Below are positions 526 through 37,274 of a DNA stretch of 64,000 nucleotides, piece after piece (the first letter of the stretch is position 1; the number at the start of each line of letters is the position of its first letter). The DNA comes from Diphasiastrum complanatum (taxonomy: Eukaryota > Streptophyta > Lycopodiopsida > Lycopodiales > Lycopodiaceae). Made by a program: the position numbers and the translations under genes. The notes below the pieces were generated by a model. The model saw only the letters and a program-made list of their open reading frames with translations. It was not told the origin of the DNA and did not search any database. The stretch lies in contig CM055113.1 of the NCBI GenBank assembly GCA_029204225.1, forward strand, positions 29,121,252 to 29,185,251, given 5' to 3'.

Positions 526-559
526 GTAAGTGTTTAAACTTCCTTGCATTAGAATGTTT

Positions 560-1214
560 TGTGAAAAATACAGATCCTAAGTGGATCTAAACTCCAAGAT
601 CATTGGCTTGAATGCTTGCACTCCAAACTACATAAGCTAGGAATTGGCAACACATTCTATGCTACCTAGAATGCAAAGAACTTGATCAAAAAGCATTTAT
701 CACAAATGGAAACTTCCATAAACATCAAGTGCGGCCCAAAATAGCATTATACAGTCCATAATACATCAGCCTACCACTTTTGGAAAGCACCTAAGATCAT
801 ACACAATAGCTTGAAGACAATACACACAACAATGCTCTCAATGGAGGAAGAAACAATGACAATGATCTATTGATCTCAATGAAGCATACAAAAGGTTTCT
901 CCAACCTGTTCTCCACGACTTCCCTACTATTTATGGATGAGGAAGATGACTCTCTCTCCTCTCTCTAGAAGGTACTTGACCCTAGATATTCCCTATATAG
1001 GAAAAATAGCTAAAAATGGCTTATATGACCAAAATACATCAAAATGGTCTCATTTTGAAGGGTATGAAGTTTGACACTTCATCATACTGAAAAGATATAG
1101 TAAATAAAAACATTGTGGCCTGGTTCACACGTGTGAAACTCCAGAACCAAAACTATTTACAATTTTAGCCAATTTAGGCCTCAAACTAGCTAGGAAATGT
1201 TGACAATTTTCACA
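560..1214 (-). repeat. 3' LTR of the intronic Copia element
   Basis: It reads TGTGAAAAATACAG... to ...CAATTTTCACA, as does the right-hand copy. A TATA-like CCTATATAGG lies at about 991-1001. The 14-bp palindrome TTCACACGTGTGAA (G-box core) is at 1124-1137. A purine-rich stretch (minus strand GAAGAGTGAG, about 1215-1224) abuts it and is the likely polypurine tract. Confidence 0.95.
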
Positions 1215-1215
1215 C

Positions 1216-4200
1216 TCACTCTTCAACATTGGATGCTAGTTTCAACATAGTCTTTGAGCACATTCCAAGATTAGATCTATGCATTAAATATAGGTCCTTT
1301 CCCAATGGTTTGGTGAAGATATCAGCCACACACTCCTTTGAAGAGACATGTTGAAGCTCCACCTCTTTGGCAATGACTTGATCTCTCACAAAATGGTGAG
1401 CAATCTCAATGTGCTTGCTCCTTGCATGAAAAACAGGATTGCTTGCCAAGCTTTGGGCTGAAAGGTTATCACAAAGTATGATTGGAGTCTTCTCTGGTTC
1501 CAGCAAGTGAAGATCCAATAACATCCTCTTGATCCAAAGAATCTCCTTGGTGCATGTTGTTAATGCCTTGTACTCGGCTTCGATGGAAGATAGAGAGATA
1601 GTTGGTTGCTTCTTTGATAGCCATGAGACCACTCCATCTCCAAGATAGATTGCAAAGGCACTTGTTGACTTCCTATCCATTTGATCACCTGCAAAATCTG
1701 AATCTGAAAATCCACAAAGGTTAGGTGTAGTACCTCCATACAAGATGCCAAAATCTCTAGATCCCGAGATGTATCTAAGTACTCTCTTTCCTAGCTTCCA
1801 ATGAGCCTCACTAGGATCTTGCATAAATTGACTTAGTTTACCAACCACAAAGCTTAGATCAGGTCTTGTGATGGTTAACCATATAAGAGATCCTATTAGC
1901 TTTCTATAGAGAGTAATGTCCTTGAAGGATCTTTCATTACTTCTTGTAGTTAGCTTTACATTTGATTCCATAGGAGTAGAAACAACTTTACAATCTTCCA
2001 TATGAAACCTTTTTAGAATAGAGTTAACATACTTTTCTTGACATATGAATGTAGATTTAGAAGTTCTAATAATCTCTATTCCTAAGATATAATGAAGTTT
2101 ACCAAGATCTTGAATTTCAAACTCTCTTTTGAGTGCCATCTTGATTTCATCTATATCTAGATTGTTACCACCACTTAAGATAATGTCATCAACATAGATC
2201 AAAAGTAAAGTGATATCATTTTCATTCAATCTAAAGTAGAGAGAATGATCATACTCACTCATAACAAAGTTTTGAGAAAGTAAGAAGGAATTGAGCTTAG
2301 CATACCAACTCCTTGGTGCTTGCTTTAGCCCATACAAACTCTTTTGGAGATAGCACACATGATTAGGCTCATCATGTGAAACATAGCCCTCGGGTTGCTC
2401 CATGTAAATATCTTCTTCAAGATCACCATTCAAGAAGGCATTAGTAACATCCATTTGCCACATATCCCAATCATAAAGAGTTGCAAGAGAGATTAGGATT
2501 CGAATAGTTACCATCTTTGCCACGGGTGCAAAGGTCTCATCATAGTCAATACCATATTCTTGAGCATACCCCTTTGCCACCAACCTTGCCTTGTACTTGT
2601 TGATTGATCCATCTTGATTTGTCTTGATCTTGAAGATCCACTTACAACCAATTGCCTTCTTGTCCTTTGGAAGCTTTACCAACCTCCATGTGTTGCTTTT
2701 GATGAGTGCTTGATGCTCATGATCCATGGCTTGGATCCATTCCTTCTTTTGAATTGCTTCACCTACACAAGTTGGTTCATCAAAAGAGGTAAGAAAAGCA
2801 AAGTTAGAGTTGTCCACCACTTGCTTTCCTTTTTCATCATAGGTTAGCCTTGATGGCTTAGCCCTTTGCCTTTGAGTCTTCCTTGAAGTTTGCTTTGGAG
2901 TGGCATCTCCATCTTCATCCAAGACATCTTGCACATCATGATGATTAGTAGGCACATCAACATCAACATCAACAACATTGGAAACATTCTCTTCATGAAA
3001 GATGACATCCCTACTTATGACAACTTTCTTTGTAGAAGGAATGTACACTTTGTAAGCCTTGCTTACTTCACTATAGCCAACAAACACACCCTTCTTTGAT
3101 GAAGGATCTTCTTTAGTTCTATCATCAAGTGTGATATTGACAAAACATGTACATCCAAAGATCCTACAATGCTTGACACTCGGCCTTCTACCATAAAGAA
3201 CCTCATGAGGAGTTTTACCATCCAAGGAAGCACTTGTCCATCTATTACATAGATAGTTAGCACATGCTAAAGCTTCCCCCCAAAAAGACTTAGCAAAATT
3301 AGCATGTAGTCTCATTGCCTTGGCACATTCACAAAGGGTTCTATTCTTCCTCTCGGCCACTCCATTCTGTTGTGGAGTCCTAGGACTAGACATCTCCCTC
3401 TTAATCCCATGTGCTATACAAAAGTCTTTGAACCTATTTGAGGTGTATTCCCCTCCATTATCAGATCTTAAGCATTTGATCTTTGTATTGAATTGGTTTT
3501 CCATTTCATTCTTGAACTTGACAAATGCAGCAAACACTTCATCCTTACTTTTAAGAAGATAGATCCAAGTATACCTACTAAAGTCATCAATGAAAGTTGC
3601 ATACATCTTTGCCCCACCATTGCTAGTTGTACTAGAAGAATGAATATCAGAATGCACAAGTTGAAAAGCTTCTTTAGATCTAGAAGTAGATCTAGAATAA
3701 GCAAGTCTATGAGATTTGGACAAGGCACAATGTTCACAAACACTATTGTTTGCAACAAGACTTTTAGGGAGACCAAGAACAAGTTCTTTCTTTGCCATTA
3801 CCTCCAAAGATTTGAAGTTGGGATGGCCCAACCTCTTGTGCCAAACTTCTTGGTTTGTCAATTGCTCCCTAGCCATACATCCTTCATGATTAGAGATCAC
3901 ACATGCATCAAGCTTGAAAAGTTTACCATGCCTCCTACCTTGAGCAATCAAGGATCCACATTTACTTATCAAACATGCATCTCCAATGAACTCCACATCA
4001 AGTCCTTTGTCAATCATTTGACTTACACTAAGCAAATTCTTAGTGATTGAAGGAATGTACAAAACATTTTCAAGATTTGCTTTCCTATTTGTTGAAAGGG
4101 AAATAGGAATAGTGCCTATGCCTTTGATGTCACATTGACCATCATTTGCAGTGTAGATGATGTTACCTTCTCCCTCATAAGACAATAAGGATGTAAAGTA

Positions 4201-5163
4201 TTCCTTATGTCTTGTCATGTGAGATGAGGCTCCACTATCAATCCACCAAGGATCATTATCATCTATGTTGGCTAACAAACTTGAAGTCATAACAAGTGAT
4301 TCACATGTGTTATGTTCTTCCTCATCTATTGTAAGATTTCCTTGCCTCTCTCCTTGCTCTCTTTTCTTCTTATAACATTCATTTGCAAAATGACCTTTTA
4401 TCCCACAATAAAAGCACTTGAACTTTGACTTATTGTTCTTAGTAGAAGAGGAAGAGGAAGAGTGATCATCATGATCAAAGTTACCACCTTTGGACCATTT
4501 CCCTTTGCCTTTACCTTTGCCCTTGAATTTGCCTTTTGTGAAGAAAGCCTCTTCACCTCCACCTTGCAAGGATGCACCATCAAGCTTTGATTGCAACCTA
4601 TGTTCTTCAGCCAATAAGATTTCTTGCAAGTCAACCACACTTGGCAAGACTCTTTGAATGGCAAAACTTTGCACAAGGTTAGCATGTTCATTTAGCAAAC
4701 CATTCAACATAACTTGGACTATTTCACCATCTTTTATGTTCTCATCAATGCATGCTAAATCATCACTTAGGGACTTAACTCTCAAGATAAATGCATGAGC
4801 ACTTTCACCCTCTCTTTGCCTACTAGAAAATATTTGTCTCCTTAGGGTCAATACCCTAGATGTGGACTTTGATTCAAAGAGCTTCTTTAAGGCATTCCAT
4901 GCCTCACTTGCACTTTGACACTTTCCAACTTCCTTGAGAAGTTCATTTGTAACATTCATTTTAATGATATGAAGAGCCCTTTTGGCCTTCTTATCAAACC
5001 TTTGTTGCTCTTGAAGTGTGAGAGGTCTCTCTTCAATTTCTGCAACTATGTCCATGAGTTCATTCAACTCAAGTAAGGACTCCATCCTCACTTTCCAAGT
5101 AGAGTAGTTTGATGAACTCAACCTTTCACTAGACTCTAGCATGATCCCACCATTGGAAGCCAT
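1216..5163 (-). CDS. Ty1/Copia gag-pol polyprotein, intact, 1315 aa
   Basis: A single ORF encodes every Copia domain in the usual order. Gag (UBN2-like) covers residues ~1-200. A Lys/Gly-rich basic stretch (~208-226) precedes a CCHC zinc knuckle at 250-263 (CFYCGIKGHFANEC). The aspartic protease has DSGASSHM at ~309. The GAG-pre-integrase/HHCC zinc site is at ~441-479. The integrase catalytic core has D at ~505 and ~568 and E at ~604. Reverse transcriptase begins at ~838, with YVDD at 990-993. RNase H ends in ADIFTKPL (~1290-1297). The length is normal for Copia and I see no stop or frameshift. The start ATG at 5163 lies downstream of a long leader. The protein would make the virus-like particle, cut itself, reverse transcribe and integrate. 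Confidence 0.97.
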   Translation of the reverse strand: MASNGGIMLESSERLSSSNYSTWKVRMESLLELNELMDIVAEIEERPLTLQEQQRFDKKAKRALHIIKMNVTNELLKEVGKCQSASEAWNALKKLFESKSTSRVLTLRRQIFSSRQREGESAHAFILRVKSLSDDLACIDENIKDGEIVQVMLNGLLNEHANLVQSFAIQRVLPSVVDLQEILLAEEHRLQSKLDGASLQGGGEEAFFTKGKFKGKGKGKGKWSKGGNFDHDDHSSSSSSTKNNKSKFKCFYCGIKGHFANECYKKKREQGERQGNLTIDEEEHNTCESLVMTSSLLANIDDNDPWWIDSGASSHMTRHKEYFTSLLSYEGEGNIIYTANDGQCDIKGIGTIPISLSTNRKANLENVLYIPSITKNLLSVSQMIDKGLDVEFIGDACLISKCGSLIAQGRRHGKLFKLDACVISNHEGCMAREQLTNQEVWHKRLGHPNFKSLEVMAKKELVLGLPKSLVANNSVCEHCALSKSHRLAYSRSTSRSKEAFQLVHSDIHSSSTTSNGGAKMYATFIDDFSRYTWIYLLKSKDEVFAAFVKFKNEMENQFNTKIKCLRSDNGGEYTSNRFKDFCIAHGIKREMSSPRTPQQNGVAERKNRTLCECAKAMRLHANFAKSFWGEALACANYLCNRWTSASLDGKTPHEVLYGRRPSVKHCRIFGCTCFVNITLDDRTKEDPSSKKGVFVGYSEVSKAYKVYIPSTKKVVISRDVIFHEENVSNVVDVDVDVPTNHHDVQDVLDEDGDATPKQTSRKTQRQRAKPSRLTYDEKGKQVVDNSNFAFLTSFDEPTCVGEAIQKKEWIQAMDHEHQALIKSNTWRLVKLPKDKKAIGCKWIFKIKTNQDGSINKYKARLVAKGYAQEYGIDYDETFAPVAKMVTIRILISLATLYDWDMWQMDVTNAFLNGDLEEDIYMEQPEGYVSHDEPNHVCYLQKSLYGLKQAPRSWYAKLNSFLLSQNFVMSEYDHSLYFRLNENDITLLLIYVDDIILSGGNNLDIDEIKMALKREFEIQDLGKLHYILGIEIIRTSKSTFICQEKYVNSILKRFHMEDCKVVSTPMESNVKLTTRSNERSFKDITLYRKLIGSLIWLTITRPDLSFVVGKLSQFMQDPSEAHWKLGKRVLRYISGSRDFGILYGGTTPNLCGFSDSDFAGDQMDRKSTSAFAIYLGDGVVSWLSKKQPTISLSSIEAEYKALTTCTKEILWIKRMLLDLHLLEPEKTPIILCDNLSAQSLASNPVFHARSKHIEIAHHFVRDQVIAKEVELQHVSSKECVADIFTKPLGKDLYLMHRSNLGMCSKTMLKLASNVEE

Positions 5164-6322
5164 GATTCTAATGTTTCTTCAACTTTTAGGTTCTGTCCTA
5201 AAGCACTTAGCACTCACTTTTCTCTCAACAAATGATAGATAAAGAGATCTATGAAGATTTAGGACCCTAAAACACTTCTATCTTGAACCTAGATGGTTTC
5301 CAAGCATAGAAAGGAAGATTGAAACACATGCAACACTTTGCACACACTAAGAATGGATTACAAAATCAAACCAACCTGAACACACTCTTGCTTAAGCTCT
5401 CAAACTTTCCAGCAAGTGACCAAATCAAGTTATGGTGTGAAGAGTTACTTGCATTCTTAGAAAATACCCAAAACTAGGATGCCAAGATTACCTAGTAATG
5501 AACAAACTTGATCAACATATGATCAACACACTAAGATATTGATTCAACCTGTAAAACCACATGTAAACCACACTTCTAAAAGTTTATAAACTCCAGCAAG
5601 TGATAAATACAAGATTTAGAGGTGAATGAATGAGCACACTTAGTGAATCACAAGACTAGCTTCACTATCTTGTCAAATCTTGGTGTTTAGATGTAGATCT
5701 AAGATCACTTCACATGAGAATGTTCCTCAACCTGTTAAGAACCTGAAAACACACTTGCATAATGGTTAACACCTTCCAGCAAATGCTCCAATCAAATTAC
5801 ATAAGGAGAGTTACTTACATGCTCAACAAAGTACACCAAAATTTATGCCAAAATTGATGACAATCTTTACAATATGCTCTTCACAATGGAGCTTACAATA
5901 TGTTCACCCAAAAAAGGGGATCTTTCATCCAAATGGGAGCTTTGCTCAGCCTTTAGGAGAATTACAACTCACTCAAAAGAGCATTTGTCATCCACTTAAG
6001 GAGAAGTTTCATCCACTTAAGGAGAGTGTTCATCCAAGAATGGAGATTGTCAACAATAGGATTGAAAAGAACATTGTTAGTATTGAATATGCACAAGCCT
6101 CACAATCACAAATGATTAGGTGTTATGATCTGATCCAAAATAGTTTCTTTTCAGCCTATGATCTTCAATAGACCTGAAATATGCTTTTGATCCACAAGTT
6201 CAACTCACAAAACAAAGGTTAGTAAGATTTGATCAACAAAGCAATGCAAAATCATGCTAGAACTTGATCAAACATCCAAATATCACCAAAAATGGAATAC
6301 TTACTGTAAATAGAAGCCAACC
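5164..6322 (-). other. Untranslated leader of the intronic Copia
   Basis: About 1.16 kb separates PBS and gag start. It has no convincing ORF on the coding strand. Short imperfect repeats of a CATCCACTTAAGGAGA type unit occur near 5990-6040. A 108-codon plus-strand frame at 5845-6171 has no recognisable protein features and is taken as chance. Confidence 0.7.
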
Positions 6323-6335
6323 AGCTCTGATACCA
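6323..6335 (-). promoter_or_regulatory. Primer-binding site, tRNA-iMet type
   Basis: The minus strand reads TGGTATCAGAGCT immediately inside the 5' LTR, the classic plant Copia PBS complementary to the 3' end of initiator tRNA-Met. Confidence 0.93.
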
Positions 6336-6990
6336 TGTGAAAAATACAGATCCTAAGTGGATCTAAACTCCAAGATCATTGGCTTGAATGCTTGCACTCC
6401 AAACTACATAAGCTAGGAATTGGCAACACATTCTATGCTACCTAGAATGCAAAGAACTTGATCAAAAAGCATTTATCACAAATGGAAACTTCCATAAACA
6501 TCAAGTGCGGCCCAAAATAGCATTATACAGTCCATAATACATCAGCCTACCACTTTTGGAAAGCACCTAAGATCATACACAATAGCTTGAAGACAATACA
6601 CACAACAATGCTCTCAATGGAGGAAGAAACAATGACAATGATCTATTGATCTCAATGAAGCATACAAAAGGTTTCTCCAACCTGTTCTCCACGACTTCCC
6701 TACTATTTATGGATGAGGAAGATGACTCTCTCTCCTCTCTCTAGAAGGTACTTGACCCTAGATATTCCCTATATAGGAAAAATAGCTAAAAATGGCTTAT
6801 ATGACCAAAATACATCAAAATGGTCTCATTTTGAAGGGTATGAAGTTTGACACTTCATCATACTGAAAAAATACAGTAAATAAAAACATTGTGGCCTGGT
6901 TCACACGTGTGAAACTCCAGAACCAAAACTATTTACAATTTTAGCCAATTTAGGCCTCAAACTAGCTAGGAAATGTTGACAATTTTCACA
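6336..6990 (-). repeat. 5' LTR of the intronic Copia element
   Basis: It has the same length and almost the same sequence as 560-1214, followed by the second TGTTT. On the minus strand it supplies the promoter. The palindrome TTCACACGTGTGAA is at 6900-6913. Confidence 0.95.
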
Positions 6991-7092
6991 TGTTTTTAAT
7001 CACTGAATGTATTAAATTTTTTTTAATCATTTAATGTATTAGAATGTTTTTAATTACTGAATGTTTTATTGCTAACATATTTCCTATTGCAG

Positions 7093-7530
7093 GATGCTCT
7101 CATAATTGATGATTTTGCTGCGAGACCAGGTGGTTTCAGACAACATGCATTGTCGTTCCAGAGGGATAGTGGACTTGGCCACTATCTTAGACATCTCCTG
7201 AAGAATGAGATCTGCATTGCTCAATCCAAGCTAAGCCCAGTCGGGGAGAGTCTTATAATGGCAGTTAAAGCTTTATCATTTTACCTAGGAGGACATAAAT
7301 TTGTAAAGACAAATAAGATCATTTTTGTCAAAAGATCTTATGTTTTGAACATTTTAGGCTTTACTGATGGGAATGATCCTTTAAGGAGCTCCCATTATTC
7401 ATTGTATTCCACTTATATTGAGCTTAGTGGAAATAAGGATAATGCACATCTATTAGATGCATACGCTAGCAGAGAATTTCTTCATGACAATACTGCCATA
7501 GAATCTGACACAAGATCTGATGATGAATAG
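7093..7530 (+). CDS. Gene X copy A, exon 2, unknown protein C-terminus
   Basis: The exon starts after the acceptor CCTATTGCAG and keeps phase 0 with exon 1. It encodes 145 residues to TAG at 7528-7530. Visible features are the start DALIIDDFAARPGG, a hydrophobic helix-like stretch around LSFYLGGHKF, and an acidic end (SDTRSDDE). The distant paralogue at 12,296 keeps the pattern D-x-x-x-x-DxFA-x-R-x-G ... HYL/YYL...KNNEI, so this part is under some family-level constraint. No function can be named. Confidence 0.72.
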   Translation, partial: DALIIDDFAARPGGFRQHALSFQRDSGLGHYLRHLLKNEICIAQSKLSPVGESLIMAVKALSFYLGGHKFVKTNKIIFVKRSYVLNILGFTDGNDPLRSSHYSLYSTYIELSGNKDNAHLLDAYASREFLHDNTAIESDTRSDDE

Positions 7531-8026
7531 TTGACACTTTGTGTTTTGGTATAATACAATCAATACATTTACATTGAGTATTTCTCCTTCCTTGTTCAAT
7601 GAATTTGCAAAGAAATTCTGAACATGTCATGATTTGATGACAATGATGATCTTCTACTCAACAATCATCTAACTTTCTCTTCCTGTATGAACTTGCATGC
7701 TTTTCTAAACTTGTTGTATTGTGTGGACTTTGTTATATGTCGAATCTGAACTCTGCGGTAGAACCATTGAAACAATTGACAAATGTAGTTTCATTTTTCA
7801 TTGGTTCCTCCATGTTGTGTATTTCAATGAAATGTTGCTCGTGCTTGCCAATGTGACTTCTCCATCCCTTGTGATGACCATACACTCAAGCTTCCATATG
7901 TATTTGCAAAAAATGTTGTATGATCTCTTAGGATGTGCTGCATACGTCAAAATCATAATGTTATCCTTATGTTTGGATCTAAATATATATGAAAATTTGA
8001 AAGCATTTTGAAAATTTTATACTAAC
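7531..8026. other. Convergent intergenic spacer, copy A
   Basis: Between the gene X stop and the last visible exon of the transposase-like gene I see no convincing gene. A 96-codon plus-strand frame (7721-8011), kept in copy B simply because the copies are alike, has no recognisable features. Confidence 0.5.
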
Positions 8027-10110
8027 CATGTAATGAGTGATGTGATCTTCTCCCCATGCTTTTGATACTGCATTAACAAACTCAACACAAGTCCTTTGGA
8101 CAGCCTTCTTATCAATATCAGAGTATTTTTCTTTTCTTAAAATAGCAATCATACTATCAAGCTTTTTCCATACATCAACTTTTAGTACTTTGGTTTTGTC
8201 GTCTTTCTCGAAGTCTTGAGTGGCAGCAATAATATTTGTCTAGACTGAGTGTTGAATATTAGAAGCCTTACCAGTATGATTTGATAGGAAACGACGTGCT
8301 TTTTCTCCTCCTATGCTTGGCTTAGTTGGCATGTTCCCATTCTTTCCTGAAAGCTTTTCATCTTTTTATATTTTGACATGTCCTTTATGGAGTCCTGCTT
8401 TTGATAAAACATCTTCTAATCGAGAGATAGCTTCCTTTGCTAATGATGCTGGCTTAGTATTCCAAGCAAAAACTACATGAAGATAAATGATCTTTTCTAT
8501 TAATCTAACTTTTGCATGAAGAGTGCAAACATGCACATTTTTTAAGGGAATAGACAACACAGGCTTCCAGTTTGGATCTGCATATTCTCTAGTAATTCAT
8601 GTACTCCTAGTTACATCTTTTGCCATTTTCATGCAATACAAACAAGGGGGTTTTGATGTAGCACCATGAGAGACATTATACATACATTTCAATGTTTTCA
8701 AATCACCTGCTAAGTGCCATTCAACATTGAAGTCTCCAACTCCTGGAACATTGAGAAGTCCTCCATCCATATGGTCTTGGATGATCCTAGGATAAGATGT
8801 CCTTGAGAATATCCATGATAATATATCATGATCCTCTTTTAGCACCTGTCTACAGAATTAATCAGACTTAGTTTACAATGTATTGATACTATTCAATGAA
8901 TGTAATGTAATAATGAGGCTAGTTACCTGAAACGCTGCCAACCACCATATATCATTTTCCAGCTGGACACTGAATCTGAAATCTTCTTGGTTCTCTGTTT
9001 GTGATAGAGCATCATTCATGAGAGTTATACTAACCCTCTCCATCTTCTGCCCTTTCAAAATTTCTGACTCATCTAACTTAAGTACTATGATTATTTTGCC
9101 ATTCACCTTTTCATTGGTTATATCATAGAATGTGACGATGTATCTCAGCAAGTAATTTAGATCAACAAATAAATTGTTTGATGCATTATAGAATGTCGAT
9201 CTTCCATCATTTCCATACACCTCCTCAATATGCAATGGAGTTCCAGTGATCATATGCATACCTATGTTTAATGTATCCCTCTCTTTCTTCAAGTGATATG
9301 TCCTAGGGATTGGGACTTCTCTAATTTGAACTTGCTTAAAAGCTTCTCTAATTAGTTTAAATATTGGTGCATATTCTTCCCTGCTAATACCTGCAAAATC
9401 ATAAGCACCCTGAACTATAGTCTTATCTAAAATTTTTTGAATGTCCACCATCAAAGACTCTGCTATTTTACACTATACATTTGAAATCCTATTGTTCGTC
9501 ATCATACGCTCAGTGGATTTGCAAGTCAATATTGTGCCCAATGACATTCCTACTGAAGCATTGTCTTTAATATTCCGAGGAGCTACTAATGCAGATTTGC
9601 AAAAAAAACAGATAGTTAACAGAATATCACCATAGCTGAAATTAAATCCAAATGTCATTGAAAAACTTACAAAAATCAGAATATGCTTATTTGAATGCAC
9701 GGATCCTTCTATTTTGATAACCTCTTTTTGAAAGCATTTGAATATCCTTGCAACTTTGTCACTTTCGCTTCATCCATGTAAGTAAATGAGTTATTGAAGA
9801 GAATGTGGGATGTGTCAAAGTGCTTGGATCTTGTGGATATAATGTTCCATCTATCTACAAATCCAAGTTTTTTTTTCCTTCTACCTTGTAACGAGAACGA
9901 TCCTTAGCAGATATACGAATTCCTTTGCCTCCTCTTCTCTGCAAAGGTGCCAAATCAATAGGAATATCCACATGTAGATGATACAATGTCATCATCAAAA
10001 AAATAGTAGAGTAATCAGTTGCATCGAAGTACTGTGACTAGATTCTATGAAGGAAAGCAAAGTACTCATCTTTGATTATATTATATACTATGTACGATCA
10101 ATCCAATCTC
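8027..10110 (-). pseudogene. Transposase-like multi-exon pseudogene, copy A
   Basis: Reading leftward, coding blocks are ~10,110-9671, 9585-8927 and 8845-8027. They are joined by plausible introns 9586-9670 (GTAAGT...AG) and 8846-8926 (GTAACT...CAG). Conserved-looking pieces include WHLAGDLKTLKCMY followed by CLYC (a CxxC), then VCTLHAKVRLIEK, and near the end VWKKLD...AWGEDHITHYM. A GD-x-K / CxxC / C-x-LH-x-x-x-R layout recalls RNase-H-like transposase-related proteins of repetitive eukaryotic elements, but I cannot name a superfamily. At least five in-frame stops (after RI, NNRISNV, DVTRST, GHVKI and IQHSV) are shared with copy B, and a frame break lies near 9770. It was therefore dead before the duplication. 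It converges on gene X. Confidence 0.6.
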
Positions 10111-10439
10111 CATGCTTGTATGCTTGATTCAAATTTGGAAATGCCGCTCATTTTTTCATTCCAATAGGTAGTTGGCGCTCATATTTCCATTCCAAAGTGA
10201 TGATGGCGTTCATAATTGGAGATGGCACCCATATTTCCATTCTTGTGGAAGGAATGCATATGTAAACATTTTGCAATTTTTTCTGATTCGAATTTGGGGA
10301 TGGCAGTCATATTCTAGATCTAGTGAAAATATTGCTCTTTTCGTAACCAATGGAGGGAATATTTTTGAAATTAGTCAAGTTATATTGCAAGCTGTTAACA
10401 GTTCTTAATTGTGACTATAGACACTCGTCATAAGGATAA

Positions 10440-11047
10440 ACAAAAAGCAGTAAGGTAGGATATGCAGAGTGAAGATTTAGGACCAAGCACGAGCCACATG
10501 TCCAACATTGATGTGGGTCGGTCATATGGCTACGATTACGTAGGAGGCACTGCACCAATTACAGTAGAATTAGGGGCCCAACTCTTCTCATGAATTGGTT
10601 GATATCGTAGCTGATCAGATTGTTGATTTTATTAGCAATCATAAGTTACAGTTTACAGTGGGATAATTGATCCAGATTGTGCCTTATTTGGTGGATTTAA
10701 AATGCTCTAAGTTACATGGATATCAACAACCTACAAGATTACCTTTAGTGCCGGTCAATACTATTGTACAATCAACAGAACATAATATTGTTCCGACATT
10801 AAAAATCAAAATCCAAGATCTTAACATTGTGGGTGTACAGATTTATGGTGGGGCAAGTGTGAAGATCATTTTTTGAGAAAACATATCGTAAACTAAAAAG
10901 TATGCATTTGCAAAAAAAAAAAAGTCTACTCGTCATACGAATGGCTAATCATACACATGATTCTCCAGTAGGAGAAATTTGTAAGGTTCTGATGTGCATT
11001 AAAGGATTAAAGTTTTTATTGACTTTTGTAGTTATGAGATATGACTG
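10440..11047 (+). pseudogene. Ty3/Gypsy gag-protease fragment, copy A
   Basis: Broken frames recover a retropepsin pattern. IQDLNIVGVQIYGGASVKIIF has Y where the catalytic Asp is expected. After an A-run, a shifted frame gives MANHTHDSPVGEICKVLMC...FVVMRYD. It is not functional. The end of the segmental duplication falls at the end of this scrap. Confidence 0.65.
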
Positions 11048-11238
11048 AAGACATGACAAGGAGTACATCAACTTGCCTACTCAAAGCAGAAGTTTGGAAG
11101 AAGCTTGACAACATGGTAAAATATTTAATAAAATATAAGTTTTCAAATACTGATGTGCAAATGATACTGAAAGCAACCAGCGAATTTGTTGATGCAGTTT
11201 AGAGTGCATGGGGAGCAGATCACATAACACATTATATG
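11048..11238 (+). pseudogene. Divergent transposase-like C-terminal exon (paralogue C)
   Basis: Translation gives VWKKLDNMVKYLIKYKFSN...FVDAV*SAWGADHITHYM, plainly related to the minus-strand exon of copies A and B (VWKKLDSMIAILRKEKYSD...AWGEDHITHYM). The exon ends at a conserved donor position (ATG|GTAAGA here, ATG|GTTAGT in A and B). One in-frame TAG is present. It lies on the same strand and just upstream of the gene X paralogue, an arrangement unlike copies A and B. Confidence 0.7.
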
Positions 11239-11306
11239 GTAAGATTTTGAAGTAGTACACAATTCCATGATACTATAGTATAAAATTGATATTTGTTATT
11301 TTTTAG

Positions 11307-12420
11307 AACCAATGTTATACATTTTGAGAGAAATGTCTAGGTTTGAGACTAGCCATTTCTCCTTTGGAGTTATTGATAATATTGACTATTTCACGTCTAT
11401 CGTTTTTCCATTTCTTTTTGTTTTGCCGTTTGTCACCGAAGGGCCTAGACGTGGAGGCCTTTTCTAAGACTTATTTTAGATTCAAGTCTTCTCAGAATAA
11501 GGATATGATACACTATCAGGACTTGATGAACATTGACATGAATAAATATAAAGCCAAGCTTGAGAGGATGTTTTACAAAGTTGCATGATGATTTGTCAAC
11601 TTTTGTTTGTTATCTTTTGTTAAACATTGAGGATGATTCTAATAATGCTTCATCATCTACTTTCGAGGCCGGTTCCTCAAGTAGTGTCAGAATTGAGAAG
11701 TCCAACCTGCTGATTTGGATTCATTTCTTCAAGATACAAATAAATAATGATGATTGTACAAATTTTGACCCTATCGAAATAGGGCTTTATTTATAGGTCC
11801 TTAGTCTACTACATCTCTTCCCCCTCATTACAAAACTTTGATTACCCTCCCTACGTATAATGTCAATAATGATTCTTTTTTGACATTATCAAATATATAA
11901 GATCTTTTTTACTTCACAGAGGCTGAAGCCCTTTGTATTTTGAGCACGGAATTAGATGACTTTTCTGATTTGAATGATTACGAGATTGATGATCTTCTCC
12001 CTGGAGTGGATGACCCAGTCAACGTGAGGAAAAGATTGCTTGAAGATAGCCGTTGAGCAAGTACATAGAAATGAAGCTGATCTTCCTAGTGAAGATGAGT
12101 TTCTTAGAATTCAAAATCAATTTGACTTTCCAGAGCCATCAATATATTCTCCAAGCTCTTCGACTTCGAGAGGAGGCCACAATGGACAGTCATAAATGGA
12201 GACAAAGGTGAATGCGTAAGTTCTTGTTTGAATTTTACTAGATAATATGTGATGCTAAAATTATGTATTTGAACTCACCTTTGTTTCGATTTCAGAAAAC
12301 TCTTTATGTGGATGAGTTTGCAATTCGTCGAGGACACAGATCTTCCGGCCGGTGAATTTCTAAGAGATCATGCATTGGGTTATTATTTGAAGTCCTTCAA
12401 GAATAATGAGATAAGTGGCA
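11307..12420 (+). pseudogene. Divergent gene X paralogue C, decayed
   Basis: Block 1 (11,307-~11,590) gives FGVIDNIDYFTSIVFPF, matching FGITENLDYFHSLFRPY of copy B. Then, after a frameshift, it gives a segment ending KYKAKLERMF (copy B FRHRLDRMFTKLF). Block 2 (~11,920-12,215) has SEDEFLRIQNQFDFPEPSIY, matching SDEEFTAFQSQMGFPHPSLL. The donor AATGC|GTAAGT (12,216) and acceptor TTTCAG (12,295) sit exactly where copies A and B have theirs. Exon 2 gives KTLYVDEFAIRRGHR, then, after a stop and shift, EFLRDHALGYYLKSFKNNEI. Several frameshifts and stops make it a pseudogene. It shows gene X is an old multicopy family with a conserved intron. Confidence 0.75.
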
Positions 12421-17589: not shown

Positions 17590-18560
17590 CAACACAAAGA
17601 AATTTGTTCATCTTGGTGACAATAGTACTCACACTATTGAAGGTGAAGGTACTGTAAGATTGTGATTCCAACATGATCAATTCAAATAACTATCAAAGAT
17701 CTTAAATGTTCCCACACTCTCTACAAATCTGTTATCAGTAAGTAGAATTACAAATTTAGGTCATAAGATAGAATTCGAATCTGGTCAATGCAAAATTGTT
17801 GATAGGAGTAATAAGATCCTTGCACTCGGCAAGAGGCATGGTTACTTATATAGATTGGCACGTTGCTATTTGGAGTCTAGTCAAGCCTTGAAAATTTCTA
17901 TTTTAGTCAATAAAGCATTACTATGGCATCATCGCTTAGGAAACTTGAATTATGCATCTGTTTTGAACATGTCCAGACAATCCATGGTTCTTGATCTCGA
18001 CTATCCTTCTGGTAAGGTTGATCTCCCTGTCTGTCATAGCTGCATCTTTGAAAAGTAGACTAGGATTCCTTTTAGATCAAATCATAGGCATGCAGCAAAA
18101 GATTTGTTAGATGTTGTTCATACAGATATATGTGGACCTATGCAAACTCCTTCTTTGCTAGATGCAAAGTATTTCATTACCTTTATTGACAAATTCTCCA
18201 AAAGAACAGTTGTTTATTTCATTAAATAGAAATCAGAGGCTTTCATCAAATTCAGATAATTCAAAGAGCATGCTGAGAATCAAACTAACAAACAAATAAA
18301 AGCACCGAGGTCAGATAACGAGAGAGAATAGATCTCCAATGAATTCAAGGAGTATTGCCTTAACAACGACATTGAGCAACAATACATTACCTCCTATTCG
18401 CCTCGGTCAAATGGTCTTGTTGAGAGAAAGAACAGAACCTTAGTTGAATTGGCAAAGTGCATGTTATCACATGATACACTTATGAATTGCTTCTAGGTTG
18501 AAGCTGTTTCAATAACAACCTATATTCAAAACAGATGTCCTACTAAAGGCCTCTCAGACA
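17590..18560 (+). pseudogene. Copia protease-integrase remnant (element 3)
   Basis: Degenerate frames give the post-protease region, the zinc site ALLWHHRLGNLNYASV...CHSCIFEK, then VVHTDICGPM (first D), RSDNERE (second D region, GGEY lost) and SPRSNGLVERKNRTLVEL (E). Multiple in-frame stops occur, including TAG after FEK and FIK. It ends at an LTR beginning at 18,564. Confidence 0.85.
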
Positions 18561-30239: not shown

Positions 30240-30845
30240 TCATCTTTTTAAGCTTAGAATGAGTGAAAAGAGGGCCCGATATTTCCTTGGGCCCCCATTT
30301 TGAAAAAAAATAAGGGGGAGGGGGATGGGAGTACACCTCCCCCCCCGTACCCTTGTACCCCCCCCCCCCCCCCCCGGTCTCTCTCTCTCTCCCTCGGGGC
30401 CAGCTGGCCCGTCAGGCCCCACCCACCCCTCCGACCCTCCGGGCCGCTGGCCCTCGAAGTTACTCAGCACCAGCAACTCATTGGATGAACCTCTTGCAAT
30501 GTCATATTGCAAGAGTGTCAGCCCAGACTCTATCACAGGATCATTGATAGAAGTCCGTCTGTCTTTGAGATCCAAGCAATCTAGAACTCCAAAATTAATA
30601 CTAAAATCAAGTTCATCTAGTCTAAAACAAAAAGGAGTACCAATTGTATTTATGGCATCAGATATGTCTTTCTCAAATTTAAGATAATCATCTGAATCTA
30701 TATATGTATAAAAATTTGGAGGAAGAGGAGGAGGTGGATGTGTAGTATCTACAATAATTAAAGGGGTATCCAAAACAAATGTAGCTATATTTACAACATT
30801 ATCAACAACAACGTTATCTACAATTGATTTTGGGTCAGGTTTCAT
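30240..30845 (-). CDS. Acidic unknown ORF, likely continuation of the H3-like gene in another frame
   Basis: The frame overlaps the end of the H3-like ORF by 11 bases. Read upstream of its ATG the frame stays open and gives PPRAKKVKRVDTTDS, a basic stretch like a nuclear localisation signal. The body contains a PPPPLPPN run, an acidic patch (YIDSDDYLKFEKDI) and ends, after LLVLSNFEG, in a GC-rich Gly/Pro-like stretch that looks foreign. Two readings fit: a separate overlapping gene, or, more likely, a C-terminal domain of the H3-fold protein separated by one frameshift near 30,880-30,940. I recognise no family. Confidence 0.45.
   Translation of the reverse strand: MKPDPKSIVDNVVVDNVVNIATFVLDTPLIIVDTTHPPPPLPPNFYTYIDSDDYLKFEKDISDAINTIGTPFCFRLDELDFSINFGVLDCLDLKDRRTSINDPVIESGLTLLQYDIARGSSNELLVLSNFEGQRPGGSEGWVGPDGPAGPEGERERPGGGGGGTRVRGGRCTPIPLPLIFFQNGGPRKYRALFSLILSLKR
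30290..30470. repeat. GC-rich low-complexity insert with poly-C tract
   Basis: A run of about 18 C at ~30,358-30,375, C-rich runs before it, a CT-repeat, and a block such as GGGCCGCTGGCCCTCG stand out from AT-rich surroundings. The homopolymer is also a likely site of sequencing error. Confidence 0.7.
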
Positions 30846-31359
30846 AGAATCTGTGGTGTCTACCCTCTTTACTTTCTTTGCTCTTGGGGGCTGTCTGCTT
30901 CCTAGGATGCTTCGTAGGAAGATCAGTCCTATCTAGAGGAGTTGGTCTGGGAGCAGCAGGCTGAGATACGTGTAACCTGCAAAACCTCTCCCTCATTCTC
31001 ATCAAGAGCTGAAAATCCTTGGGAATTATGGTAACTCTCTTGGAATGGATGGCAAGCAAAAATGAATCTTCAAAAAAAAAACTAAGGTAATCTTCAGCAG
31101 CCTCCTGAAGGCACTGAAGAGCACTGGGTGTAAATCTGACCAGCTTTTCGAGATCATTTCTTCTTATGTTTCGGACAGCATGGTAGAATGGAGCTCTTGG
31201 GATCAACAGAGCAGTTGATCTCTGATACTTGCGTATCTCAGAGAGCCACCTGTTGCAGTTGCGCATTCTAGGTCTAGCAGGAGGTGAAATGGCAACCGCA
31301 GGGGCTGAGGATGAGCCAGGAGAGAAGAAGTCCCTCCTTGTCTGCTTTCTCCTATCCAT
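30835..31359 (-). CDS. Divergent histone H3-fold protein, 174 aa
   Basis: The ATG (31,357-31,359, context ATCCATGG) starts a protein with a short N-tail (RRKQTRRDFF, echoing the KQT of the H3 tail). The H3 fold follows: alphaN with EIRKYQRSTALLIPRAPF (41-58), a short alpha1 with an altered loop 1 (NDLEKLVRF), alpha2 with SALQCLQEAAEDYL (79-92) and FFEDSFLLAIHSKRVTI (95-111), and alpha3 from PKDFQLLMRMRERF (113-126). These match the H3 family at the diagnostic LQEAxExYL, LFED, AIHxKRVT and PKDxQL positions. Tail and loop 1 are unlike canonical H3, and ~48 extra residues follow the fold, where H3 normally ends. It would be nuclear and might enter nucleosomes or act as an H3 variant. It is transcribed away from gene X. 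The C-terminus may be altered by a frameshift. Confidence 0.88.
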   Translation of the reverse strand: MDRRKQTRRDFFSPGSSSAPAVAISPPARPRMRNCNRWLSEIRKYQRSTALLIPRAPFYHAVRNIRRNDLEKLVRFTPSALQCLQEAAEDYLSFFFEDSFLLAIHSKRVTIIPKDFQLLMRMRERFCRLHVSQPAAPRPTPLDRTDLPTKHPRKQTAPKSKESKEGRHHRFYET

Positions 31360-32186
31360 GGATGTGTACTATGCAATAGCGGACTTGTGCATGACGGCGA
31401 GGATGAGCAGGGAAGGATGATAAAGATCTCGCAGAGGACCGATATGTACAGACAGAATGTACAGTATGTCGGACCTGTGCGAGTTGAATATATGAAAGAG
31501 CGATTAGTTTTGAAGAAAGACGCACAAGTGCGATACGGGGGGACACGTAGGCAGATGTATCGGACCTGTGCGCATGGAAGGCGGTAGGTGGAATTTCGAT
31601 TGTGAAGGACGCGCACAAGTGCGATATGCAGAGCGAAAAAAAAAAAGTGAAAAAAATTCATCGAAGTTTGTGATTTTATATCGCGGTAGGAAATAATGTC
31701 CTATCACACGTGTGGGAGTTGTACGGACAAATGAGAGAGCAACATGTGTCACCCTATCACTTTACACATGTGGGATTTGTACGACCAAATGCGAGAGCGA
31801 CACGTGTTGTCGAGCAAACGAATGAACACATGACACATGTCCAGGTGTCATTTCACATGTGTCCAGGTGTCACCTCACACGTGCCAGTGCCTGTAGTCGA
31901 ATCAAAAGTAGACACATGTCCATTGACCATTGACCACACATGCAAAAAGTTAGTATAAATGTCACAAAAACCAATTAATTTTTTTACCTTTTTCATTATC
32001 GAAATTTGCAGCATATCGCCCTTGTGTGCACGCATTGCTTTCCGTTTGCTTTCAACGACACCTATTTGCACACAAGTACGATATTCGATATCTGCCTGCC
32101 ATACATATCCCTCTTGTGCGCCATCTTGATAGTTAGTTTTGTTTCTGTGCTCCCTCGCGCACAAGTGTGATATTCACTTTACTTCC
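31360..32186. promoter_or_regulatory. Divergent promoter region with nine copies of an 18-bp motif
   Basis: Consensus near GCGCACAAGTGCGATATG. Plus-strand copies: 31,521, 31,611, 32,068, 32,156. Minus-strand copies: around 31,374, 31,465, 31,556, 32,011, 32,105. Five lie within 270 bp of the H3-like start and four within 180 bp of the gene X start. Between the clusters are several CACGTG/CACATG boxes (31,704-31,880) and TAGTATAAATG near 31,951. These could be binding sites of a shared regulator or a transposase. Confidence 0.7.
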
Positions 32187-33188
32187 ATGGCCTCTTCCTC
32201 AAGATCCTCATGAGATTCAGGCTTGAGTTCATTTCTTAGTGAATTTGGGATTACTGAAAACCTAGACTACTTCCACAGCCTATTCAGGCCATATTCACAT
32301 ATTTTCAGGACTGCACGACCAAATTCTGACGTTTTTTATGAACATTATGTTAGATTTAGAGATATACTTAGTAAGCATGTTTTCTCCATAGGTTCACTCC
32401 AGTACATGCATTATACTAATCTTGTTCATTTCTTCCCAGCTTTCAGACATAGACTGGATAGAATGTTTACCAAATTGTTTGATCTTTTCAGAAGCAGTTC
32501 ATTGTGTCCTTATTGCAACAAGAAATGTCGATCGGTTGAATATCAGAGTGGTTTCATACTTTTCCTGTTAGTTCAAATCCCAGATGATGAGGAAGTTTCT
32601 GTTGGTGACTCTCCTTTTGCATCATCCTCTGTTCAGTCAGCTATTAAAGATATCAGTCACTTTTTTATCGACACTTCTGATAAGGAAAGTGACTTTATTG
32701 ATGTAAATACTGATTCTCTATTGTATTCTTTTATTGGCCAAAATACATCTGCTGATGAATCCAACCCTATAGAGGAGTCTAAATGTCTATTCAATTTGCC
32801 TATATATTATATTAATGACGATGTATATTTTACTACTACTGATTTATGTAAAATTTTTTACTATTGCAAAGACGAGGTTCTATGTTTATTATCCGCCACA
32901 ATTTCCAAATTCTCCGACTTTGTAGATTTTGAAACAGATGACCTTGTTGCTGGTATTGATTTTGATGATGAGGAGGGACTTATGACCGGTGAAGAATGCC
33001 TGACTAAGACTTTATTAAATATAGCTGAGGATGGGCGAGGCAGACCATCCGATGAAGAATTCACGGCATTTCAATCCCAGATGGGCTTCCCTCATCCATC
33101 ATTATTGCATTTCACTGATGATTCCACTTCAGTACATGGTCATTATATTGATCATCCTGATCCGGTTGCTGCTGATGGTGAAGAATGT
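32187..33188 (+). pseudogene. Gene X copy B, exon 1 (one nonsense codon), unknown protein
   Basis: The ATG at 32,187 (TTCCATGG) is in frame with the long open frame from 32,214 but is followed by TGA at codon 9 (32,211-32,213), probably CGA to TGA. No other in-frame ATG lies near, so this copy is likely silenced unless it initiates elsewhere. The rest is open to the donor at 33,189. Visible features: an N-terminal aromatic-rich part (FGITENLDYFHSLFRPY), a Cys cluster CPYCNKKCRS resembling half a zinc site, a Ser/Asp-rich middle and SDEEFTAFQSQMGFPHPS conserved in paralogue C. No known family was recognised. It shares a motif-rich upstream region with the H3-like gene. Confidence 0.72.
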
Positions 33189-33319
33189 GTAAGTGTTTAA
33201 ACTTCCTTGCATTAGAATGTTTTTAATCACTGAATGTATTAAAAAAATTTTAATCATTTAATGTATTAGAATGTTTTTAATTACTGAATGTTTTATTGCT
33301 AACATATTTCCTATTGCAG
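33189..33319 (+). other. Gene X intron, copy B, with empty Copia target site
   Basis: 131 bp, GTAAGT...CTATTGCAG. It contains TTAGAATGTTTTTAATCACTG, the uninterrupted form of the site that holds the Copia element in copy A. Confidence 0.88.
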
Positions 33320-33757
33320 GATGCTCTCATAATAGATGATTTTGCTGCGAGACCAGGTGGTTTCAGACAACATGCATTGTCGTTCCAGAGGGATAGTGGA
33401 CTTGACCACTATCTTAGGCATCTCCTGAAGAATGAGATCTGCATTGCTCATTCCAAGCTAAGCCCAGTCGGGGAGAGTCTTATAATGGCAGTTAAAGCTT
33501 TATCATTTTACCTAGGAGGACATAAATTTGTAAAGACAAATAAGATCATTTTTGTCAAAAGATCTTATGTTTTGAACATTTTAGGCTTTACTGATGGGAA
33601 TGAGACTTTAAGGAGCTCCCATTATTCATTGTATTCCACTTATATTGAGCTTAGTGGAAATAAGGATAATGCACATCTATTAGATGCATACGCTAGCAGA
33701 GAATTTCTTCATGACAATACTGCCATAGAATCTGACACAAGATCTGATGATGAATAG
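33320..33757 (+). CDS. Gene X copy B, exon 2
   Basis: 145 codons and TAG, phase 0 with exon 1. It differs from copy A at a few residues (GLDHYL for GLGHYL, IAHSK for IAQSK, GNETL for GNDPL). It ends with the acidic SDTRSDDE. The exon itself is intact, but the copy carries a nonsense codon in exon 1. Confidence 0.72.
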   Translation, partial: DALIIDDFAARPGGFRQHALSFQRDSGLDHYLRHLLKNEICIAHSKLSPVGESLIMAVKALSFYLGGHKFVKTNKIIFVKRSYVLNILGFTDGNETLRSSHYSLYSTYIELSGNKDNAHLLDAYASREFLHDNTAIESDTRSDDE

Positions 33758-34253
33758 TTGACACTTTGTGTTTTGGTATAATACAATCAATACATTTACA
33801 TTGAGTATTTCTCCTTCCTTGTTCAATGAATTTGCAAAGAAATTCTGAACATGTCATGATTTGATGACAATGATGATCTTCTACTCAACAATCATCTAAC
33901 TTTCTCTTCCTGTATGAACTTGCATGCTTTTCTAAACTTGTTGTATTGTGTGGACTTTGTTATATGTCGAATCTGAACTCTGCGGTAGAACCATTGAAAC
34001 AATTGACAAATGTAGTTTCATTTTTCATTGGTTCCTCCATGTTGTGTATTTCAATGAAATGTTGCTCGTGCTTGCCAATGTGACTTCTCCATCCCTTGTG
34101 ATGACCATACACTCAAGCTTCCATATGTATTTGCAAAAAATGTTGTATGATCTCTTAGGATGTGCTGCATACGTCAAAATCATAATGTTATCCTTATGTT
34201 TGGATCTAAATATATATGAAAATTTGAAAGCATTTTGAAAATTTTATACTAAC
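33758..34253. other. Convergent intergenic spacer, copy B
   Basis: Equivalent of 7531-8026. No supported gene. Confidence 0.5.
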
Positions 34254-36335
34254 CATGTAATGAGTGATGTGATCTTCTCCCCATGCTTTTGATACTGCAT
34301 TAACAAACTCAACACAAGTCCTTTGGATAGCCTTCTTATCAATATCAGAGTATTTTTCTTTTCTTAAAATAGAAATCATACTATCAAGCTTTTTCCATAC
34401 ATCAACTTTTAGTACTTTGGTTTTGTCGTCTTTCTCGAAGTCTTGAGTGGCAGCAATAATATTTGTCTAGACTGAGTGTTGAATATTAGAAGCCTTACCA
34501 GTATGATTTGATAGGAAACGACGTGCTTTTTCTCCTCCTATGCTTGGCTTAGTTGGCATGTTCCCATTCTTTCCTGAAAGCTTTTCATCTTTTTATATTT
34601 TGACATGTCCTTTATGGAGTCCTGCTTTTGATAAAACATCTTCTAATCGAGAGATAGCTTCCTTTGCTAATGATGCTGGCTTAGTATTCCAAGCAAAAAC
34701 TACATGAAGATAAATGATCTTTTCTATTAATCTAACTTTTGCATGAAGAGTGCAAACATGCACATTTTTTAAGGGGATAGACAACACAGGCTTCCAGTTT
34801 GGATCTGCATATTCTCTAGTAATTCATGTACTCCTAGTTACATCTTTTGCCATTTTCATGCAATACAAACAAGGGGGTTTTGATGTAGCACCATGAGAGA
34901 CATTCTACATACATTTCAATGTTTTCAAATCACCTGCTAAGTGCCATTCAACATTGAAGTCTCCAACTCCTGGAACATTGAGAAGTCCTCCATCCATATG
35001 GTCTTGGATGATCCTAGGATAAGATGTCCTTGAGAATATCCATGATAATATATCATGATCCTCTTTTAGCACCTGTCTACAGAATTAATCAGACTTAGTT
35101 TACAATGTATTGATACTATTCAATGAATGTAATGTAATAATGAGGCTAGTTACCTGAAACGCTGCCAACCACCATATATCATTTTCCAGCTGGACACTGA
35201 ATCTGAAATCTTCTTGGTTCTCTGTTTGTGATAGAGCATCATTCATGAGAGTTATACTAACCCTCTCCATCTTCTGCCCTTTCAAAATTTCTGACTCATC
35301 TAACTTAAGTACTATGATTATTTTGCCATTCACCTTTTCATTGGTTATATCATAGAATGTGACGATGTATCTCAGCAAGTAATTTAGATCAACAAATAAA
35401 TTGTTTGATGCATTATAGAATGTCGATCTTCCATCATTTCCATACACCTCCTCAATATGAAATGGAGTTCCAGTGATCATATGCATACCTATGTTTAATG
35501 TATCCCTCTCTTTCTTCAAGTGATATGTCCTAGGGATTGGGACTTCTCTAATTTGAACTTGCTTAAAAGCTTCTCTAATTAGTTTAAATATTGGTGCATA
35601 TGCTTCCCTGCTAATACCTGCAAAATCATAAGCACCCTGAACTATAGTCTTATCTAAAATTTTTTGAATGTCCACCATCAAAGACTCTGCTATTTTACAC
35701 TATACATTTGAAATCCTATTGTTCGTCATCATACGCTCAGTGGATTTGCAAGTCAATATTGTGCCCAATGACATTCCTACTGAAGCATTGTCTTTAATAT
35801 TCCGAGGAGCTACTAATGCAGATTTGCAAAAAAAACAGATAGTTAACAGAATATCACCATAGCTGAAATTAAATCCAAATGTCATTGAAAAACTTACAAA
35901 AATCAGAATATGCTTACTTGAATGCACAGATCCTTCTATTTTGATAACCTCTTTTTGAAAGCATTTGAATATCCTTGCAACTTTGTCACTTTCGCTTCAT
36001 CCATGTAAGTAAATGAGTTATTGAAGAGAATGTGGGATGTGTCAAAGTGCTTGGATCTTGTGGATATAATGTTCCATCTATCCACAAATCCAAGTTTTTT
36101 TTTCCTTCTACCTTGTAACGAGAACGATCCTTAGCAGATATACGAATTCCTTTGCCTCCTCTTCTCTGCAAAGGTGCCAAATCAATAGGAATATCCACAT
36201 GTAGATGATACAATGTCATCATCAAAAAAATAGTAGAGTAATCAGTTGCATCGAAGTACTGTGACTAGATTCTATGAAGCAAAGCAAAGTACTCATCTTT
36301 GATTATATTATATACTATGTACGATCAATCCAATC
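34254..36335 (-). pseudogene. Transposase-like multi-exon pseudogene, copy B
   Basis: Same exons and introns as 8027-10,110 (blocks ~36,335-35,898, 35,812-35,154 and 35,072-34,254). It carries all five stops shared with copy A plus one of its own: TAG in KCM*NVSHG (near 34,904). The best preserved block encodes MMVDIQKILDKTIVQ... to ...WWLAAFQ before the intron. The first block, 79 codons at 36,225-35,986, includes LDLWIDGTLYPQDPSTLTHP. Superfamily not identified. Confidence 0.6.
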
Positions 36336-36666
36336 TCCATGCTTGTATGCTTGATTCAAATTTGGAAATGCCGCTCATTTTTTCATTCCAATAGGTAGTT
36401 GGCACTCATATTTCCATTGCAAAGTGATGATGGCGTTCATAATTGGAGATGGCACCCATATTTCCATTTTTGTGGAAGGAATGCATATGTAAACATTTTG
36501 CGATTTTTCCTGATTCGAATTTGGGGATGGCAGTCATATTCTAGATCTAGTGCAAATATTGCTCTTTTCGTAACCAATGGAGGGAATATTTTTGAAATTA
36601 GTCAAGTTATATTGCAAGCTGTTAACAGTTCTTAATTGTGACTATAGACACTCGTCATAAGGATAA

Positions 36667-37274
36667 ACAAAAAGCAGTAAGGTAGGATATGTTGAGTGAA
36701 GATTTAGGACCAAGCACGAGCCACATGTCCAACATTGATGTGGGTCGGTCATATGGCTACGATTACGTAGGAGGCACTGCACCAATTACAGTAGAATTAG
36801 GGGCCCAACTCTTCTCATGAATTGGTTGATATCGTAGCTGATCAGATTGTTGATTTTATTAGCAATCATAAGTTATAGTTTACAGTGGGATAATTGATCC
36901 AGATTGTGCCTTATTTGGTGGATTTAAAATGCTCTAAGTTACATGGATATCAACAACCTACAAGATTACCTTTAGTGCCGGTCAATACTATTGTACAATC
37001 AACAGAACATAATATTGTTCCGACATTAAAAATCAAAATCCAAGATCTTAACATTGTGGGTGTACAGATTTATGGTGGGGCAAGTGTGAAGATCATTTTT
37101 TGAGAAAACATATCATAAACTAAAAAGTATGCATTTGCAAAAAAAAAAAAGTCTACTCGTCATACGAATGGCTAATCATACACATGATTCTCCAGTAGGA
37201 GAAATTTGTAAGGTTCTGATGTGCATTAAAGGATTAAAGTTTTTATTGACTTTTGTAGTTATGAGATATGACTG
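36667..37274 (+). pseudogene. Ty3/Gypsy gag-protease fragment, copy B
   Basis: Duplicate of 10,440-11,047, with the same catalytic-Asp loss (QIYGGASVKIIF) and the same A-run frameshift. Confidence 0.65.

Follow-up and report, generated by a model that had tools for sequence, protein, structure and literature searches.

The H3-like gene and its neighbours

The window, by which we mean the whole stretch of DNA analysed, comprises 64,000 nucleotides of Diphasiastrum complanatum contig CM055113.1, and its features are collected in Table 1. An open reading frame encoding a histone H3 fold was located exactly where the original prediction had placed it, and the assignment itself was borne out: the frame matched the Pfam family PF00125 (Histone) at 90.5 bits against a cut-off of 26.4, and its best relatives in the PDB were H3.1/H3.2 chains (E 8.7e-23, residues 16-123). 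With an H3-type alpha-N helix and H3 as best match, the protein belongs to the H3 class by its fold. The tail, which had been described as non-canonical, does depart from H3 but is really a degenerate H3 tail, MDRRKQTRRD against MARTKQTARK. A canonical tail with K4, K9 and K27 is absent; residues 1-8 are kept or degenerate, an Asp occupies the K9 position, and the remainder is not H3-like.

The gene in the window is a remnant of the first exon of a longer H3-Ulp1 gene. Element similarity ends at 30457, and no match to gene 4 or to an Ulp1 exon, both described below, was found in the window copy of the H3 gene. A frame shift near 30859-30890 means that the last residues of the 174-aa frame are off-frame. 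A C-rich and simple-repeat stretch occupies 30280-30456, where the gene is cut off. Rfam returned nothing at gathering score on the window.

Gene X lies divergently beside the H3 gene, and in many of its other copies exon 1 is open over 355 aa. The claim that gene X and a transposase-like gene (gene T) recur in at least two near-identical segments was confirmed by self-matches of the window at 99% (1-560 with 32664-33223, and 6990-11047 with 33217-37274), which define copy A. A Copia element nested in copy A (560-6990) has identical ends (560-859 and 6336-6635, 100%) and a 1315-aa open frame. Copies A and B and the loci L010 and L011 are approximately 98-99% alike and lie within 29.12-29.55 Mb of contig C22, so that the element region is duplicated locally. 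No H3 fold was recognised in the decayed relative at 11044-12413, beside copy A.

Table 1. Coordinates of the features in the window.
Feature	Position	Strand	Remarks
Open reading frame, 174 aa	30835-31359	-	histone H3 fold
Exon 1 remnant of H3-Ulp1 gene	30457-31359	-	frame broken near 30859-30890
H3-tail-like N-terminus MDRRKQTRRD	31330-31359	-	Asp at H3 K9 position; kept in other copies
Histone H3 fold with alpha-N helix	30970-31263	-	Pfam and PDB matches
Divergent intergenic region, H3/gene X	31360-32186 (analysed as 31360-32187)		six GCACARGT
Gene X exon 1	32187-33197	+	TGA near start in window copy
Gene X exon 2	33284-33757	+	whole gene X 32187-33757
Gene T, transposase-like, several exons	34221-36215	-	stops in window copy
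Copy A, near-identical copy of gene X (part) and gene T	1-11047		Copia element inside at ~560-6990
Decayed divergent relative of element	11044-12413	+	T-like (48%) and gene X-like (42%) fragments
Copia fragment, paralogous empty site for element C1:60101101-60110116	18072-18237	+	flank alignment

A repeated four-gene element

We searched the genome (1.745 Gb in 5176 contigs) for further copies. With the H3 protein of the window as query, the best 150 of 7249 first-look candidates were scored and all 150 matched (E<=1.8e-82); the corresponding figures were 122 of 122 scored candidates for gene X (from 9496 first-look candidates), 150 of 150 for Ulp1 exon 2 (the best of 4474) and 150 of 150 for gene T (the best of 10263). 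As only the best candidates were scored, the true copy numbers of all four are larger. Ordinary host H3 genes were also found in the genome (L001, L004 and L006). The H3-like frame is thus neither a single occurrence nor an ordinary host CENH3 locus, two possibilities that the original prediction had set against itself; a host CENH3 locus or a single gene is ruled out by copy number.

Linkage was examined at 30 H3 loci (L009-L038). Gene X, proposed as the divergent partner of the H3 gene, was divergent and upstream at 28 of them, in places truncated, and Ulp1 exons 2 and 3 were present at 28 and 26, respectively. DNA elements of about 9 kb with terminal inverted repeats carry four genes, one of which comprises an H3-like tail, an H3 fold and, through predicted splicing, an Ulp1/C48-type protease domain; the unit at L056 reads gene 4, H3-Ulp1, gene X and gene T between its terminal inverted repeats. 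At L057, gene 4, gene X and gene T are present without the H3 fold.

The ends of L057 form an exact 35-bp inverted repeat (708-742 and 7998-8032), the right end being common to L056 and L058, and with inverted repeats at both termini the unit has the ends of a TIR DNA transposon. Genome-wide, a 32-base end occurred 2417 times (1177+1240) at up to 3 mismatches, and a reversed-pattern control gave 0; left-specific ends numbered 399+378 and right-specific ends 554+617. The joined flanks of the element C1:60101101-60110116 align without gaps to the Copia fragment in the window at 152 of 166 positions, which for this one insertion indicates clean integration without target duplication. Among 10 independent flank pairs (four C3 pairs being entered once as one duplication), a 3-bp match (TCA) was seen in one and no match in the other nine. 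The terminal inverted repeats and the empty site together support the mobile repeated unit of H3, gene X and gene T that had been inferred from the window.

Exact left ends were bunched on contig C1, with 22 of 46 in 95-100 Mb and 13 of 46 in 64.9-66.8 Mb, and exact right ends were rare in those regions. Two opposed element ends only 1.2 kb apart (C4:68089672-68090887) may mark a short non-autonomous derivative.

Exon structure of the H3-Ulp1 gene and the nature of gene T

Elsewhere in the genome, the H3-Ulp1 gene has a first exon of approximately 338 codons, which is followed by the Ulp1 exons. At L041 a GT-AG intron leads into NDHWSLNLI and a second intron into SPQQN; the joining of H3 and Ulp1 exons is predicted splicing. 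PF02902 (Peptidase_C48), for which the cut-off is 20.7 bits, was matched by the spliced exons 2 and 3 of L039 with a score of 30.6 bits (E 3.9e-7), exon 3 alone giving 20.5 bits. The HW and QQN...CG motifs of the C48 (Ulp1) class are present, with the catalytic Asp lacking a certain placement, but they vary between copies: the spliced exons of L041 fell under the cut-off at 18.3 bits, and their Cys is replaced by Phe. Alignment to yeast Ulp1 was weak (E 0.043), and Ulp1 exon 3 alone had no match in the PDB.

Pieces of gene T had no match over a Pfam cut-off, weak unrelated ones apart, and none in NCBIfam; a profile of T exon A gave unrelated PDB hits only (E 0.16 and 1.1). Since gene T has no match over a Pfam cut-off and no useful PDB match, its role as a transposase is putative. 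A T-like layout may also occur in some animal and fungal proteins. When T pieces were compared with Pfam down to E 10, with filters that drop most weak matches, no hAT dimerisation domain or DUF659 appeared, and an 8-bp target site duplication, the other hAT trait, was likewise absent. No MULE transposase or DUF1985-type VANC was found among the Pfam matches of T, X and gene 4 pieces; the Ulp1 domain, a trait of MULE/KIU VANDAL elements, is present.

The lysine-9 position and a motif array

An Asp at the K9 position was found in 31 of 32 distinct family-1 places, family 1 being the one represented in the window, with Gly in the remaining place; the K4 equivalent was kept in 30 of the 32 (two Arg). 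Most of these places had been selected for their resemblance to the window H3, and all 4 family-1 places outside the similarity list keep both the Asp and the K4 equivalent. Of 12 copies of a second family, described below, 11 have D and one has N at the K9 position, and 11 have K at the K4 position. Host H3 has K9 at the position where both families mostly carry Asp. Family 2 has an in-frame ATG four codons ahead of the MARTKQTAR ATG, so its tail may not be free at the N-terminus.

The intergenic region between the H3 gene and gene X carries an array of the motif GCACARGT, 4-6 times in each of five such regions (L040 and L041, which are near-copies, both among them) against 0.06-0.12 expected from 200 shuffles. 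In the window it occurs at 31383, 31473, 31522, 31564, 31613 and 32159 (0.09 expected). The spacing is in part about 91 bp, and the motif is absent (0 occurrences) from the remaining 4.9 kb of L056.

Further H3-like families

At least three further H3-like families accompany family 1 in the genome. Nine further Pfam matches yielded the 8 loci of family 2 and L082, which represents family 3; family 4 (L115) emerged from a search with family 3. A search with the family-2 fold gave matches for 150 of the 150 best candidates scored, and in the family-3 search identity dropped from 100% to approximately 50%, where other families start. In the family-2 copy on C156 a single open frame runs from MSEEMARTKQTARDPRV to the fold, with which the protein ends. 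Among the best 50 of the 150 folds, a family-2 tail was found upstream in at least 31, at a distance that is a multiple of three in 18 of the 31. In the stretch L087 a family-2 H3 gene is accompanied by a gene 4 relative (E 4e-20) and by a relative of gene X exon 2 (E 3e-12), both E-values being those of single comparisons; gene X exon 1 was matched there at E 5e-4 only. No T or Ulp1 relative was recognised in the 7 kb of this stretch, so the H3-Ulp1 fusion may be a feature of family 1 alone.

The fold is 45-67% identical between families and 49-57% identical to host H3, the value for family 1 being 57%. Families 1-3 formed one clade in two trees (bootstrap 94 in one; 87 with SH-aLRT 95.5 in the other), and plant CENH3 weakly adjoined them (bootstrap 65 and 59, with SH-aLRT 90.8 for the latter); the reference sequences were entered by hand, and the trees covered families 1-3. 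Loop 1 has a single extra residue in family 1 and none in family 2.

Selection and decay

Across the 32 family-1 places dN/dS was 0.30 for the fold, 0.53 for the tail, 0.55 for the linker and 0.42 for gene X; for gene T it was 0.47 and 0.69, the latter for exon B. On the 4 places outside the H3-similarity list the fold reached 0.58 (0.55 when a near-identical fifth was added) and the tail 0.42; stops occur in all 4, and in one the fold also contains a frame shift. The fold of family 2, on 8 loci found by histone search, gave 0.32. Within family 1 the sign of constraint is moderate and varies with the copies taken. Exon 1 has a stop in 20 of the 32 family-1 places, and the origins of stops (CAG to TAG 21/503, CGA to TGA 8/110, CAA to TAA 6/216, repeated places included) are suggestive only.

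Between families, with one copy of each, the fold showed pN of 0.20-0.39 and pS of 0.70-0.90, silent sites being saturated or nearly so. Persistence of the fold over such divergence is a stronger sign of long-term constraint than the dN/dS within families, although a conserved host H3 captured on separate occasions would leave a similar picture. Because the between-family result offsets the weaker constraint within families, our weighting of the explanations considered below was unchanged. Neutral decay, which the original prediction had named as a possible objection, is real for many single family-1 copies, while the fold is kept between families.

Comparison with known elements

Known transposons counter silencing with DNA-binding proteins, or carry host genes passively. 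The closest precedent for the element is found in Dothideomycetes, where, according to PMC6710886, hAT transposons of approximately 9.5 kb in P. fijiensis carry an H3 coding sequence; the copies number hundreds in that species, where they are inactivated by RIP, and 26 in Pyrenophora tritici-repentis, where they are potentially active. Like the Diphasiastrum element these are multicopy DNA transposons with an H3, so that H3 in transposons is already known, but they make an 8-bp target site duplication and carry a retrocopy of a host H3, whereas the Diphasiastrum element has neither a target site duplication nor a hAT match (PMC6710886). New here, relative to the fungal elements, are a diverged and long-conserved H3 that is fused to Ulp1 exons in family 1, its occurrence in several families in a plant-like host, and the lack of a known transposase match.

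A second likeness is to the VANDAL/KIU MULEs of Arabidopsis, multi-gene plant DNA elements with non-coding motif arrays and Ulp1 in one gene, in which the anti-silencing protein VANC binds to arrays of motifs within the element that encodes it, Ulp1 being carried by the KIU versions (PMC5735166, PMC13317346). Anti-silencing has been demonstrated in VANDAL/KIU, whereas in the Diphasiastrum element it is proposed from sequence; moreover, the latter has no MULE or DUF1985 family among its Pfam matches, and the word "histone" has 0 occurrences in the main text of PMC13317346. The element protein shares the alpha-N helix, the H3 fold and the Pfam Histone match with CENH3 and canonical H3, and differs from both in its Ulp1 exons (family 1), its replaced K9 and its multicopy, mobile nature. 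Among the papers listed by searches of the open PMC library, and judged by title and start of abstract, none was recognised as describing a plant transposon with a gene for a histone or for a histone-Ulp1 fusion.

Interpretation

The odd histone is almost certainly a gene of the element. Taken whole, the best explanation of the data is that it is a working element protein, as opposed to cargo, that acts on chromatin to oppose silencing, a reading that we favour tentatively. The protein would pair with host H4, become part of chromatin or of chaperone complexes, and shield element copies from silencing; the product of gene X, gene 4 or T might direct it to the motif arrays that separate the H3 gene from gene X. 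Protection from silencing is proposed because the tail Asp replaces the methylatable lysine 9 and because the Ulp1 domain could remove SUMO from proteins that act in silencing. Replacement of K9, a domain of the SUMO-protease type and the motif array fit such a role, and they parallel the VANC/KIU elements. An anti-silencing function as such is possible, and we put it forward a shade more cautiously than the whole explanation; more speculative again is the fullest statement of it, in which an undescribed lineage of plant DNA transposons would build its own K9-less H3, joined in one family to a SUMO protease, into or through chromatin against heterochromatic silencing.

The strongest competing explanation is that the protein serves transposition as a tether or through chaperones, with the H3 fold docking the element complex on H4/H3 chaperones or nucleosomes, for nuclear import or choice of insertion site, and with the protease processing element or host proteins, so that anti-silencing would not be the principal function. 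That the H3 residues of the dimer and DNA faces (H113, R116, D123 and R83) are mostly kept speaks for it, as does the bunching of exact left ends on contig C1; as this bunching comes from a single contig and the Asp at the K9 position is left unexplained, we regard a mainly transpositional role as rather unlikely.

Less probable still is passive cargo, in which the element would have picked up a host H3 copy and multiplied it without benefit to itself, the fungal hAT elements being a close precedent (PMC6710886). It would account for the exon 1 stops in 20 of 32 family-1 places and for the fold dN/dS of 0.58 on the 4 places outside the H3-similarity list, and host H3 genes captured independently several times could likewise show saturated silent sites between families. 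However, the fold is kept although diverged (57% to host H3 in family 1) with silent sites saturated, families 1-3 group together in a single clade to which host H3 does not belong, the H3-like tail retains the same Asp and is followed by Ulp1 exons, and a second family has the same gene 4 and gene X.

Derivation of the element histone from CENH3, with targeting to centromeres, seems improbable: the trees place families 1-3 beside plant CENH3 and not canonical H3, but the bootstrap values of that grouping are weak (65 and 59), its references were entered by hand, and loop 1 is longer by only one residue in family 1 and not at all in family 2. Fragments of an endogenous virus, suggested by the several genes of the unit, its protease and its lack of a match to any known transposase, are very improbable given the terminal inverted repeats, the gapless empty site, the lack of a relative in two viral-contig scans (the second with two short patterns only) and the weakness of the PHROGs matches of single pieces (E 0.0084 and 0.43).

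The duplication-free insertion suggests a transposition chemistry worth study. If the anti-silencing explanation is true, a histone that the element has retained over a long time, and in which the residue used for silencing is exchanged, would represent a novel strategy in the conflict between transposons and their hosts. As a natural K9-substituted H3 it would offer a tool for asking whether H3K9 methylation is required to keep plant elements silent, and it would give reason to check expansions of the "histone H3" gene family in plant annotations.
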